Source of the DNA: Robiginitomaculum sp.
Lineage (GTDB): Bacteria; Pseudomonadota; Alphaproteobacteria; Caulobacterales; Maricaulaceae
NCBI GenBank assembly: GCA_002733805.1
Contig: NVXG01000006.1
Coordinates: 31,741-95,740, forward strand
Reading direction: 5' to 3'
Length of the DNA: 64,000 nucleotides
Each line of letters starts with the position of its first letter. The stretch's first letter is position 1. Positions 59,877 to 64,000 of the stretch are shown here, in pieces. The notes beneath the pieces are model-generated. The model saw nothing but the letters and a program-made list of their open reading frames with translations. It was not told the origin of the DNA and did not search any database. The translations under genes were made by a program, and so were the position numbers.

Positions 59877-60895
59877 AAGCATTAGTCAAGGCAAAGCCGG
59901 AGCCGGGTATTTGGATGCAGGACATGCCGGTGCCCAAACCCAAACATGATGAAGTGCTAATCAAGATTAAGAAAACCGCGATTTGTGGCACGGATATTCA
60001 TATCTACAATTGGGATCAGTGGTCACAGGAAAACGTGCCCGTACCCCTGATCACCGGCCATGAATTCATGGGCGAGATCGTCGAGTTGGGCCAACACGTC
60101 ACCCGGCACCATGTTGGCTTGCGGGTATCTGGTGAGGGCCATGTGGTTGGCGATTTATCGCGCGCGGCTCGTGAAGGCAAATGGCATTTGTCGGCGGACA
60201 CCAAGGGCATTGGTGTGAACCGTGATGGGGCATTTGCTGAATATCTGGCGTTGCCCGCCTTCAACGTCGTGCCATTGCCGCCCCACGTCAGTGATGACGT
60301 GGCAGCGATATTGGACCCGTTGGGCAATGCGACCCATGCGGCGTTGACCTTTGATTTGGTCGGCGAAGACGTGCTGATCACCGGGGCCGGACCCATTGGC
60401 GCGATGGCCGGAGCCATTGCCCGCCACGCCGGGGCGCGCCATGTGGTGATCACCGACATCAACCAAACCCGGCTTGATCTGGCCGCCAATCTGGCCGATG
60501 TGCGAACGGTCAATGTCGCCAAAGAAGACTTAGCCGATGTCATGGCTGAACTGGGCATGACCGAAGGCTTTGACGTGGGTCTGGAAATGTCCGGTGCGGA
60601 GGCAGCCTTCACCCAAATGACCGATACCATGGTGATGGGCGGCAAGATCGCAATGCTCGGCATTCCACCCGGCGAAACCCAAGTCAATTGGGGAACCATC
60701 ATCACCAAAGCCCTAACCATCCAAGCCATTTACGGCCGCCGCATGTTCGAAACCTGGTACAAAATGCTGGCCATGTTAGGCTCCGGCCTAAACGTCGACG
60801 GCATCATCACCGATCACTTCGCCGTGGACGACTTCCAAGCCGGATTTGACCGGATGCGTTCAGGGGAGAGCGGGAAGGTGATATTGGAGTGGTGA
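59873..60895 (+). CDS. tdh: L-threonine 3-dehydrogenase
   Basis: The 340-aa zinc-dependent medium-chain dehydrogenase oxidises threonine to 2-amino-3-ketobutyrate, the substrate of Kbl. It has the catalytic Zn Cys in [50 protein letters not shown], and the NAD-binding [18 protein letters not shown]. The structural zinc Cys cluster normally present in this family is replaced around [18 protein letters not shown], where no Cys is seen. It follows kbl by an ATGA overlap. Confidence 0.93.
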
Positions 60896-60899
60896 TGCA

Positions 60900-61634
60900 A
60901 TGACAAACGTGAATATTACGTTGGCTGCGGTTGGTCACATGCCCATGCAGTTTAACAAAGCAAAGATTCAAAAGTGGCCATCGGGTATTTTTGAAGTATC
61001 TGGCGATATCAATACTTATACATTACCGACAGATTCGGATGGACCTAGTTGGGAGTTCACAGATAAGAATTTGGAGAGGGTATTGCCAAATGATTTTGAG
61101 GGTGAGTTTTTAATCGCGATTGTAAATGTGCCTCTAGAACTCAACTGGTACTCACGACGATTAAGCAATAATCGAATTGTTTTTTCTTTTCATGAAGTAA
61201 AAGATATTTTAATCCGAGAAAATATACCGCTGGAAAACGTAATTCTTCGGCTAATGTACGCGTATTCATTGGTTTTTTTGGAGAATAACAGATCCATTCC
61301 ATTAGCTACTGAGAGAACAAATTTTACGCACGATGAAACTCGCGGCTGCTTGTTTGATATGAACGGAATCAAGTCAGATATCGTGGAGTCTTGTGACAAA
61401 CCGATTATCTGTTCCCCATGTGAAGATAGGATTCTGAAGGCCAGAATTTCGGTTGAAAATATCAAAAAGACCAAAAAAGAAATTTCAAAAATCAAAAAAC
61501 AGACATTTTATAAAATTCTGAAATTTATTCAGATATACCCAATTCTTTCAATTCTGGTTTCGGCCATATTTGCAATAGTACTTGGTGTGTTAAGTTCACT
61601 GATTGCCACTGGAATTCTATCCAAATTCCCTTAA
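60900..61634 (+). CDS. Tail-anchored cysteine-motif protein of unknown family
   Basis: I cannot name this 244-aa protein. The N-terminal 150 residues look like a soluble alpha/beta domain (GEFLIAIVNVPLELNWYSRRLS, NRIVFSFHEVKDILI, ENVILRLMYAYSLVFL). A compact His/Cys motif follows, HDETRGCLFDMNG then KPIICSPCEDRIL (H-x5-C ... C-x2-C). A Lys-rich coiled coil leads into one C-terminal transmembrane helix (ILSILVSAIFAIVLGVLSSLI). The arrangement vaguely recalls an archaemetzincin C-terminus without an HExxH. Its codons are visibly AT-richer than tdh, which ends 4 bp before it, and it borders a repeat-rich MazEF island, suggesting acquisition. Confidence 0.7.
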   Translation: MTNVNITLAAVGHMPMQFNKAKIQKWPSGIFEVSGDINTYTLPTDSDGPSWEFTDKNLERVLPNDFEGEFLIAIVNVPLELNWYSRRLSNNRIVFSFHEVKDILIRENIPLENVILRLMYAYSLVFLENNRSIPLATERTNFTHDETRGCLFDMNGIKSDIVESCDKPIICSPCEDRILKARISVENIKKTKKEISKIKKQTFYKILKFIQIYPILSILVSAIFAIVLGVLSSLIATGILSKFP

Positions 61635-61653
61635 AACTTGGCCAACATGGAGC

Positions 61654-61688
61654 AAAAACTGGATCACCCGAACAAGTCGGGTGATGAC
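61654..61688 (+). repeat. 35-bp palindromic repeat, copy 1
   Basis: AAAAACTGGATCACCCGAAC continues as AAGTCGGGTGATGAC, and the same 35 bases occur at 62489-62523. The core ATCACCCGA-ACAAG-TCGGGTGAT is a perfect 9-bp stem with a 5-nt loop. It lies just after the unknown gene's stop. Confidence 0.85.
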
Positions 61689-61734
61689 AATGGGATGGTG
61701 TTGCTTGGACAAGAATTGTTCTCAACAACCAATC

Positions 61735-61763
61735 CGTCATTGCGGGCTTGATCCGCAATCCAT
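61735..61763 (-). repeat. Palindromic repeat, same family, inverted orientation
   Basis: CGTCATTGCGGGCTTGATCC continues as GCAATCCAT. ATTGCGG and CCGCAAT form a perfect 7-bp stem. Read on the minus strand it follows the TGGAT...ATGAC plan of the other copies. Confidence 0.65.
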
Positions 61764-61794
61764 CCACCCGTCGTTATTGCGTCAAGTACATGGA

Positions 61795-61822
61795 TGGATA
61801 CCGGGGCAAGCCCGGCATGACG
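61795..61822 (+). repeat. Palindromic repeat, same family
   Basis: TGGATACCGGGGCAAGCCCG continues as GCATGACG. The CCGGG/CCCGG arms and TGGAT...ATGACG ends match the family layout. It lies 35 bp beyond the mazF stop. Confidence 0.6.
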
Positions 61823-61856
61823 GAGTGATGTGGAAATTCTGTTTCTGCAACCGCCT

Positions 61857-62183
61857 TCAACCTATCCCCAAAAACACCATCAGCGAGCGCTCCAACCTCA
61901 CCATATCCTTTGATGATAACTCCCCGATTTTACGGCCCAGCCGGCCTTTATGAACGGTACTGACCTTGTCCGCCATCATTCGGGATGTGGCTTTTAGTCC
62001 GTTCTCGTCACTTGGTTCGACAGCAATGCGAAAAAGCGGGGCTTCGGTCTCATCGCTGGTGAACACACAGATGGTTATGGAGGCAAGAGCAGAAAAATGG
62101 TCGTCTTGCAAAATGACGGCCGGGCGTGGTTTGCCGGTATAGCCAGAGCCACCAGATACCGTCCATATTTCACCACGTTTCAT
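61857..62183 (-). CDS. mazF: MazF/PemK-family endoribonuclease toxin
   Basis: The 108-aa toxin of a type II system probably cleaves mRNA at short motifs. It starts MKRGEIWTVSGGSGYTGKPRPAVIL, the usual R-G-(E/D)-(I/V)-W and KPRPAVI signatures, followed by ICVFTSDETEAP, GLKATSRMMADKVSTVHKGRLGRKIGEL with the conserved S/T-x-x-x-x-D-K segment, and MVRLERSLMVFLGI. It overlaps the antitoxin gene by 4 bp and lies between members of a palindromic repeat family. Confidence 0.9.
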   Translation of the reverse strand: MKRGEIWTVSGGSGYTGKPRPAVILQDDHFSALASITICVFTSDETEAPLFRIAVEPSDENGLKATSRMMADKVSTVHKGRLGRKIGELSSKDMVRLERSLMVFLGIG

Positions 62184-62404
62184 TCAGAAATCGCGTCAAT
62201 GAATTCCTGATCGGGCTGATCCAGAGCCGATGCGGCAATGGCGCGGGCTTGCAGTTTTGCTTGCTTTGCGAAGTCAGCCGACCGGGTGTCTGGCACCCAT
62301 ATTTGCACCGGGCGCAAACCTTTGGCCCGCATCCGTGAACGGTGTGCTTGGACTTTCTCGGCGGAAGTTTTTTTACGGTTTTGTGCAGACAATTCAGACT
62401 CCAT
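62180..62404 (-). CDS. mazE: MazE-family (DUF3018) antitoxin
   Basis: The 74-aa protein has the DUF3018 pattern SAEKVQAHRSRMRAKGLRPVQIWVPDTRS followed by FAKQAKLQARAIAAS and a C-terminal acidic tail QEFIDAISE expected to block the toxin. These antitoxins pair with MazF in many proteobacteria. The gene precedes mazF with a 4-bp overlap, the normal order. The pair may autoregulate; no operator was picked out. Confidence 0.88.
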   Translation of the reverse strand: MESELSAQNRKKTSAEKVQAHRSRMRAKGLRPVQIWVPDTRSADFAKQAKLQARAIAASALDQPDQEFIDAISE

Positions 62405-62488
62405 TGGTTACATGTAACCTACTGCAAGCGGCCAAAATGTCAAGAAATTCCGTCATTGCTTAGGTGATCCGGGCAATCCAGCAAGTGT

Positions 62489-62523
62489 AAAAACTGGATC
62501 ACCCGAACAAGTCGGGTGATGAC
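62489..62523 (+). repeat. 35-bp palindromic repeat, copy 2
   Basis: This is identical over 35 bp to 61654-61688 and in the same direction, so the MazEF genes lie between two direct repeats. A truncated relative, GGTGATCCGGGCAATCCAGC, lies just before it at 62463-62482. Confidence 0.85.
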
Positions 62524-62557
62524 GCTTTGGGGATATGAACACCCAAATCTGACCCAT

Positions 62558-62584
62558 CGTCCCCAGGCGTGATCTGGGGTCCAT
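62558..62584 (-). repeat. Palindromic repeat, related element
   Basis: CGTCCCCAGGCGTGATCTGG continues as GGTCCAT. The CCCCAG and CTGGGG arms pair, and the minus-strand reading follows the TGGAC...GACG plan of the family. Confidence 0.55.
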
Positions 62585-62665
62585 CCTTGGCGTTGCTGCA
62601 AACAAGTTTGGGTGCAGTTGCCTTGCAAAAGAGACCGGTGGTCAATCATCTATGAAATTGACGTT

Positions 62666-63040
62666 TTAACCTTCGGCAGGTTGTTTTTTACTGGCGATCC
62701 AAACCAGCGCCAAAGCAATGAATGCGGGTAGTGCCTGTACAAATAATATCGAGGCTTTGGCCGTGAAGCCGCCAAAAATACCGGAGATGATCACACAGAG
62801 CAGGAAGAAAATCTTCACATCCTTGCGCCCGGCCAGCAAACCCCAGACAAGGCCTGCCGCCAAAAACCCGTTATACAAACCCTGATTAGCGGCCAAAGCA
62901 GCAGATTCTGCCGCAAATTCCGGTGTGGTGCCAAATATTTGTTGTCCCGCGGGTTTTGACCACAAAAACATCTCCAACACTAAAAACCCAAAATGACTAA
63001 AGGCAACAAAAGCAGTGCTTATCCATGCAAGAAATTTCAT
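62666..63040 (-). CDS. DUF1304 family membrane protein
   Basis: The protein of about 124 aa has four hydrophobic helices. DUF1304 features are FSHFGFLVLEMFLW, AANQGLYNGFLAAGLVWG and SGIFGGFTAKASILFVQALPAFIALAL. GGAGG precedes the ATG at 63040; the track adds seven residues upstream without support. Function is unknown. It sits alone between repeat-bearing gaps. Confidence 0.85.
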   Translation of the reverse strand: MKFLAWISTAFVAFSHFGFLVLEMFLWSKPAGQQIFGTTPEFAAESAALAANQGLYNGFLAAGLVWGLLAGRKDVKIFFLLCVIISGIFGGFTAKASILFVQALPAFIALALVWIASKKQPAEG

Positions 63041-63143
63041 ACCAGCCTCCAAACCGTCCAACGATTTCTATACGTCTTGGCAACGTTCTGCAATGATTGC
63101 TCATTGGCGGACTTGATCTGGGGTCTAGCGCGTGGGTAAAAGA

Positions 63144-63195
63144 CTGGACCCCGGCCCCACCGGTCAAGCCGGAGGGTGGTCTGGGGCCGGTGATG
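63144..63195. repeat. Long GC-rich hairpin in the cdd leader
   Basis: CCGGCCCCACC at 63151 can pair with the GGTGG...GGGGCCGG stretch ending at 63190, with CCGG-TCAAG-CCGG nested inside. It resembles the repeat family in its TGGAC and TGATGG ends. It lies 21 bp before the cdd start, so it would be in the mRNA leader if transcription starts upstream. Confidence 0.5.
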
Positions 63196-63215
63196 GAATA
63201 ACGTCAGGAACCCGA

Positions 63216-63608
63216 ATGAAACAATTACGTGCCGCCGCCAAAATTGCCATGCATCAGGCCTATGCGCCGTATTCTGAGTATCAGGTCGGCGCGGCGCTTC
63301 GTACGCGCTCTGGCAAGGTGTATTCGGGGGGCAATGTGGAGAACGCAGCGTATCCGCTGGGCAATTGTGCGGAGGCCTCGGCCATTGCGGCGATGGTGTT
63401 GGCTGGCGAGCGCGAAATTGCCGAAATTTTCATTATGAGCAAGGGCAAGAAACCCGGTACGGTTTGTGGTGGTTGTCGGCAGCGTTTGGCTGAGTTTGCC
63501 GGGCCTGATATTCGGATTGATTGCGGACTGGAAAGCGGGGAAACAAACACCTATACCTTGGGCGAATTGTTGCCCCACGCCTTTGATTTGAAAGAAACCA
63601 AAGTATGA
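63216..63608 (+). CDS. cdd: Cytidine deaminase
   Basis: The protein of about 130 aa deaminates cytidine and deoxycytidine to uridine forms. The zinc motif is CAEASAI (catalytic Glu) with CGGCRQ, and YAPYSEYQVGAAL and GGNVENAAYPLGNC are typical. The ATG at 63216 has AGGAA just upstream; the track's 28 extra residues come from the palindromic element. It overlaps the purine nucleoside phosphorylase start by 4 bp, giving a nucleoside salvage operon. Confidence 0.93.
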   Translation: MKQLRAAAKIAMHQAYAPYSEYQVGAALRTRSGKVYSGGNVENAAYPLGNCAEASAIAAMVLAGEREIAEIFIMSKGKKPGTVCGGCRQRLAEFAGPDIRIDCGLESGETNTYTLGELLPHAFDLKETKV

Positions 63609-64000
63609 GAACTGTTATTCGCAAAGCCGTTGAATTTATCGAAAGCCGGGCCGGTCAAAAAGAACGATTGGCCCTTGTGCTGGGTTCTGGCTTGGGTGGT
63701 CTGGTTGATCTGGTCGAAGACAAGGTATCCATTCCATATTCGGACATTCCGGGTTTTCCAATCTCTACCGTAGCGTCTCATGCGGGCGAGTTGGTATTGG
63801 GCCGGATTGGCAAGATGGAAGTGGCGCTGATGGCTGGGCGCATCCACTATTATGAAGACGGAAATCCAGCCGCGATGATGGTGCCGATCGAGGTGTTATG
63901 GCATTTGGGCTGTCGGACTTTGTTGCTGACCAATGCGGCGGGTAGTGTCAACGAAGACGTGCCGCCAGCCAGCGCATCATTGATCACGGACCACATCAAT
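63605..64000 (+). CDS. Purine nucleoside phosphorylase (N-terminal part)
   Basis: This gene is cut by the right edge, leaving about 132 residues; it is absent from the ORF track because no stop is seen. It starts MRTVIRKAVEFIESR at an ATGA overlap with cdd. Family motifs of the trimeric PNP type are LALVLGSGLGGLVD (phosphate loop), PGFPISTVASHAGELVLG, MAGRIHYYEDGNP and LLLTNAAGSVNED. It would split purine nucleosides with phosphate, complementing cytidine deaminase in salvage. Confidence 0.9.
   Translation, partial: MRTVIRKAVEFIESRAGQKERLALVLGSGLGGLVDLVEDKVSIPYSDIPGFPISTVASHAGELVLGRIGKMEVALMAGRIHYYEDGNPAAMMVPIEVLWHLGCRTLLLTNAAGSVNEDVPPASASLITDHIN

Follow-up and report, generated by a model that had tools for sequence, protein, structure and literature searches.

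A mobile, protease-dead archaemetzincin-like protein with a predicted membrane tail, inserted behind tdh in Robiginitomaculum: a candidate defence factor

What kind of gene sits directly behind tdh in a single Robiginitomaculum genome, how did it get there, and what might its product do? The window, which is the whole stretch of 64,000 nucleotides that we analysed, contains at 60900-61634 on the plus strand an open reading frame for a protein of 244 amino acids that starts 4 nt past the tdh stop codon and runs in the same direction. The original prediction described an AT-richer, acquired gene that would form one defence-like island with a neighbouring toxin-antitoxin pair and palindromic repeats. 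Its composition agrees with the first part of this description: the GC content is 0.37, as against 0.57 for tdh, 0.55 for kbl and 0.54 for cdd, and the GC3 is 0.37 versus 0.68 for tdh. The source genome has one copy of the gene, and is its only carrier both among the 18 genomes of the genus, the other 17 of which lack it, and among 200 genomes of the order (absent from the 199 others). Given this absence, the foreign composition and an empty junction in a congener (G219), where tdh and cdd are joined directly, we conclude that the gene was acquired and inserted directly behind tdh.

The tdh-cdd junction (60895-63216; L061-L065) is a variable insertion site in the genus. It holds repeats only in congener G214. 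In G014 it is occupied by another AT-rich gene, which encodes a protein with a hydrophobic stretch at its N-terminus, and in G225 by a gene that resembles a methylase (a weak match to Eco57I, E 4.7e-5, falling just short of the Pfam cut-off) together with a small gene; in G004 the region is rearranged. A GGAG in the 3' end of tdh (60886-60889, plus strand) precedes the cdd start in G219 and the start of the acquired gene in the window. The incoming gene has thus probably taken this over as its ribosome-binding site. On the far side of the junction, cdd and the next gene, for a purine-nucleoside phosphorylase (63210-64000), share 49-60% identity with the genes at the same positions in congeners, compared with 84-89% for tdh, which may reflect in-place replacement or fast divergence.

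The features next to the acquired gene tell a different story from the predicted island. As foreseen, a DUF3018-MazF pair is present: a MazF/PemK-like toxin gene (61857-62183, minus strand; PF02452, E 1.9e-21) and a MazE-like antitoxin gene (62180-62404, minus strand; PF11455, E 7.8e-23), adjacent with an overlap of 4 nt and both over the Pfam cut-offs. Compared with known MazEF/PemK modules, the pair (61857-62404) is an ordinary MazF with a DUF3018-type antitoxin, which adjoins the 244-aa gene and stands outside its system. The predicted identical palindromes exist as well, as two 35-nt copies at 61654-61688 (outside the 244-aa gene) and 62489-62523, where none would be expected by chance. 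However, six more near-copies occur elsewhere in the source genome, and similar palindromes are found at the same tdh-cdd junction in two congeners. They are thus dispersed genomic repeats, and as such provide no evidence for an island. A larger imperfect inverted repeat with 37-nt arms spans 61730-61827. The palindromes of the window (61654-61827 and 62489-62523) are REP-like, and three near-copies cluster on contig C88 of the source genome.

We therefore reject a single acquired island made up of the 244-aa gene, the toxin-antitoxin pair and the palindromes, on the grounds of composition, strand and repeat dispersal: the pair has a near-native GC content of 0.52-0.54 and is on the strand opposite to the 244-aa gene, and no partner gene is shared. 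The toxin-antitoxin pair and the palindromes look like separate native features.

Sequence databases gave little purchase on the acquired protein, with no match in Pfam (E up to 1), PADLOC models or PDB sequences, and a single spurious match in NCBIfam, far under the cut-off. An AlphaFold2 model built from an alignment of 25 members, two plasmid rows being left out, has a mean pLDDT of 86 and a pTM of 0.81. It agrees with the predicted alpha/beta domain, which would occupy residues 1-180 (60900-61439, plus strand). In a Foldseek search of the PDB with this model, archaemetzincins formed the top five matches, among them 3lmc, 3zvs and 4axq, with 2x7m first (E 1.6e-4, probability 1.00); the lower-ranked matches were weak and included other metzincins. 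A second model, made for a member from Flavobacterium that shares 43% identity with the first, had archaemetzincins as its top four matches, with a target-normalised TM of up to 0.66; since it was built on nearly the same alignment, it checks the query and is not a fully independent test. The target-normalised TM scores of the archaemetzincin matches (0.54-0.66) are moderate, indicating a remote match between predicted and solved structures.

The proposal of an archaemetzincin-like domain without HExxH thus gains from both models, AmzA structures being the best matches, and the structural half of the search against metzincin folds points the same way. Its profile half does not, as a profile-profile comparison (hhalign) with three archaemetzincin M54 sequences was not significant, so that kinship to archaemetzincins rests on the predicted fold. 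Searching 399 genomes of the phylum with PF07998 returned one weak match under the cut-off, to a protein with a complete HExxHxxGxxH, and a fold search in viral proteins returned nothing significant. Neither HExxH nor HEXXHXXGXXH is found in any of the 27 aligned members. An archaemetzincin peptidase was considered as a label for the family and rejected, because the defining HEXXHXXGXXH motif was looked for and is absent. On the strength of the models, the most fitting description of the protein is a new variant of the archaemetzincin fold that is protease-dead and membrane-anchored.

The protease centre has gone, but a remnant of a second metal site appears to remain. The cysteine motif noted at the outset, H144-x5-C150-x3-M154-x16-C171-x2-C174 (HDETRGCLFDMNGIKxD...PxxCxxC; residues 144-174, 61329-61421, plus strand), has its His and three Cys residues invariant in the 23 full-length members of our alignment, and it falls in register with the Cys4 site of archaemetzincins. 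In those proteins, four cysteines hold a structural zinc (PMC3427221). Read most simply, the sequences suggest that the family has lost the catalytic zinc site but retains the structural one, in which His now stands where archaemetzincins have the first Cys; we accordingly propose zinc binding at H144, C150, C171 and C174. Residues 141-160 combine the highest conservation with the lowest model confidence, as can happen when a metal or a partner is missing from a model.

Behind this domain, the model places basic helices (residues 185-212; 61452-61535, plus strand) followed by a single membrane helix (residues 214-242; 61539-61625, plus strand). The most hydrophobic 19-residue stretch, 218-236, has a mean hydropathy of 2.69, and all members with an intact C-terminus share one strong hydrophobic stretch near residues 215-241, which bears out the single C-terminal membrane helix of the original prediction. 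Within the 25 residues ahead of it, the members have 5-9 Lys or Arg residues versus 1-3 Asp or Glu residues. By the positive-inside rule, this excess suggests that the N-terminal domain is cytoplasmic and that the tail crosses the inner membrane.

The gene belongs to a rare family that has travelled widely. A scan with one genome per species (84,980 species) yielded 26 relatives, 44-61% identical in the best segment (43-58% is the range for the homologues as a whole) and scattered sporadically over at least five phyla. The carriers span several classes of Proteobacteria as well as Bacteroidota (Flavobacterium), Chlorobiota and Myxococcota, and further carrier assemblies are labelled Campylobacterales, Desulfocapsa and Deltaproteobacteria. 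Two homologues are plasmid-borne. Another is on an IMG/VR contig that we read as filamentous-phage-like from its Zot-like and secretin-like ORFs; a profile search of viral contigs found this same contig again and no other. The gene is also carried by 3 of 5,426 Escherichia coli genomes, all three from environmental isolates. In the gene tree, carriers of different phyla group together with strong support, e.g. Myxococcota with Chlorobiota (99/99), and the window member is on a long branch of unsure placement. The family is horizontally spread, widely and sporadically, and is largely undescribed, having no Pfam, NCBIfam or PADLOC model. A mean column identity of 61% over 27 aligned members is strong conservation for a rare, mobile, single-gene family, and suggests a transferable trait under selection. 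Four homologues (L007, L026, L028 and L030) are broken.

A distant relative of 241 aa was detected in another genome of the same order (G016; L079:1150-1875, minus strand), with a profile match probability of 94% over the N-terminal half. It keeps the C-terminal hydrophobic stretch and lacks the H/C3 site, and by our own reading it is located between hisB-like and M20-peptidase-like genes. Its existence suggests a wider superfamily.

How does the gene travel? In several relatives, though not in every member, it is an integron cassette. On a Tenderia plasmid (L003), it is one small ORF behind a divergent integron integrase gene (TIGR02249, E 2.1e-119), and in Vogesella (L014) it is three small ORFs behind another (E 3.2e-145); attC-like sites adjoin both members along with the integrase. 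In Porticoccus (L011), it is part of a row of small same-strand ORFs with attC-like palindromes between them. Many members have GTTATGC or a similar core some 22-27 nt ahead of the start codon and GCATAAC or a similar one at or just past the stop; in several, the core itself provides the TAA stop. Under a strict count, which required 6 or more of the 7 bases in the pair to match, such paired edges flank 7 of 30 members (L004, L005, L010, L011, L018, L027 and L030) as against 4 of 211 other ORFs (p 5e-5). Of the 29 carrier genomes or records, 12 encode integron integrases over the cut-off, mostly without demonstrated adjacency to the gene. A search of the homologue loci with Rfam gave no attC and one unrelated element. 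As for the window copy, no attC remnant or core-site pair was found at its edges, and the integrase-like matches in the source genome are all under the cut-off for an integron integrase.

The neighbourhoods of the homologues consist mostly of housekeeping or mobile-element genes. Surveying them revealed no consistent defence partner, and no partner gene of any kind is conserved across the 29 homologue loci. In the Desulfocapsa member, a DUF3800 gene is found directly upstream on the same strand (L019:6745-7902), with a weak match to PDC-M04A, a PADLOC model for candidate defence genes (E 1.3e-9).

In E. coli strain SC477 (NZ_LR778152), the gene (protein WP_097448362.1) is the cargo of a small tRNA-Asn island that comprises an integrase gene, three HTH genes and an integrase-domain gene. 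At the next tRNA-Asn, a sister island built in the same way carries instead an ABC-three component system of three genes matching Lamassu LmuABC (LmuB, E 8.8e-79); the two islands are our loci L081 and L083. At the same island site, E. coli A32 has a DUF4747 gene with an unknown gene behind it (L084:8178-9628), a cargo that has no PADLOC match and is an accessory or defence candidate. Other, more distant islands that share a related integrase-domain gene contain Dnd, an ApeA-like HEPN gene, or T6SS or RHS genes, and several of those in E. coli have T6SS/RHS genes rather than defence genes. The slot is therefore accessory and only partly defensive. A possible association with defence genes comes from the Lamassu-like sister island in one E. 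coli genome and is not consistent at other homologue loci; no PADLOC model matches the window protein or the E. coli member.

What might such a protein do? Once inserted behind tdh, the gene would probably be translated from the ribosome-binding site at the tdh end. Its product would have a cytoplasmic archaemetzincin-like domain that has lost its protease centre, and the C-terminal helix would tether it to the inner membrane. With no such centre left, the domain most likely works through binding to a protein partner, by analogy with CarG of Myxococcus xanthus. It is tempting to speculate that a membrane-held sensor or blocker of this type would recognise an invading component of a phage or mobile element. 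The lack of a conserved partner gene makes it probable that the protein works by itself or together with some component of the host. The computations show the acquisition, the wide and sporadic transfer, the cassette status in several relatives, the resemblance in fold, the loss of HExxH and the membrane helix; from these we infer zinc binding, topology, partner binding and defence. Our main reading, to which we give a probability of roughly 0.45, is that this single-gene cargo, with its protease-dead archaemetzincin-like domain, putative structural zinc site and inner-membrane tail, most likely serves in defence against phages or mobile elements. The estimate for defence itself, of the same order or slightly lower, combines the mobile distribution, the Lamassu-like sister island and a prior of near 16-18% for integron cassettes: in the review's account, a screen in V. 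cholerae covered 88 cassettes without known function and gave 16 that were anti-phage, and in V. parahaemolyticus 9 of 57 were (PMC12409362). Among the conceivable uses, anti-phage defence appears the likeliest, as a tentative assignment. The fuller description, of a bacterial immune factor encoded by one gene, spread from phylum to phylum mainly by integrons and built on a protease-dead archaemetzincin with an inner-membrane C-terminal tail, is slightly more tentative still. The E. coli version makes a test of defence straightforward in a laboratory strain.

The main rival to defence is a CarG-like role in regulation or stress, in which the membrane-held dead protease domain of a mobile gene would bind a host regulator or an envelope complex and tune a response. 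CarG itself, a protease-dead archaemetzincin relative, has a known regulatory role (PMC3427221, PMC8156234), the neighbourhoods of the homologues are mixed, and most of the unknown-function integron cassettes tested gave no anti-phage activity, as the review recounts these screens (PMC12409362). However, neither a CarD-like gene nor any other conserved partner accompanies the family, and spread between phyla suggests a target that is either very conserved or foreign. We consider this role possible but on balance unlikely. More doubtful is a new active site, with the HDETRGCLFDMNGIKxD stretch forming another kind of enzyme on the metzincin scaffold at the membrane. The conserved D145, E146, D153, N155, K158 and D160 exceed the needs of a structural zinc site, but they could also form a binding surface, and no known catalytic family was recognised in Pfam or NCBIfam. 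Least probable is a neutral passenger, inserted by chance and without present function in the source genome: although the gene is in one genome of the genus only and some homologues elsewhere are broken, its frame is intact, all invariant residues are present and it begins a short way past tdh, where a plausible ribosome-binding site is available.

Comparison with known systems helps to place the family. Like the anti-phage integron cassettes (Darracq 2025, Kieffer 2025, Getz), its members can be small single-gene integron cargo; compared through the review of that work (PMC12409362), no member was matched to a tested cassette. With the archaemetzincin AmzA (MEROPS M54, PF07998; 2x7m, 3zvs, 4axq, 3lmc), the family shares the same predicted overall fold (Foldseek probability 1.00) and the order and spacing of the C-terminal site, i.e. 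a ligand, a Cys and a Met, then 16 residues to C-x2-C; the counterpart stretch in M. kandleri AmzA reads H-C-x4-C-x-M-x16-C-x2-C, and the M54 pattern for the Cys4 zinc site, to which the family was compared, is C-x4-C-x-M-x17-C-x2-C. In contrast to AmzA, the family has no HExxHxxGxxH and no Pfam match, has His for the first Cys with one extra residue, has the Met two residues later, and has added basic helices and a membrane anchor. The closest functional parallel would be CarG, in which protease activity is absent and the Cys site is kept (PMC3427221, PMC8156234). CarG has kept a changed HQxxH, whereas the family has lost the motif fully; according to its description, CarG occurs in myxobacteria alone and is coupled to CarD, while the family is mobile and membrane-anchored, and a search for a comparable CarD pairing found no conserved neighbour in the 29 loci. 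By analogy, the family may work most like CarG, through partner binding, without being a CarG. If our reading is true, the family would join CarG as the second dead archaemetzincin whose job is something other than proteolysis.
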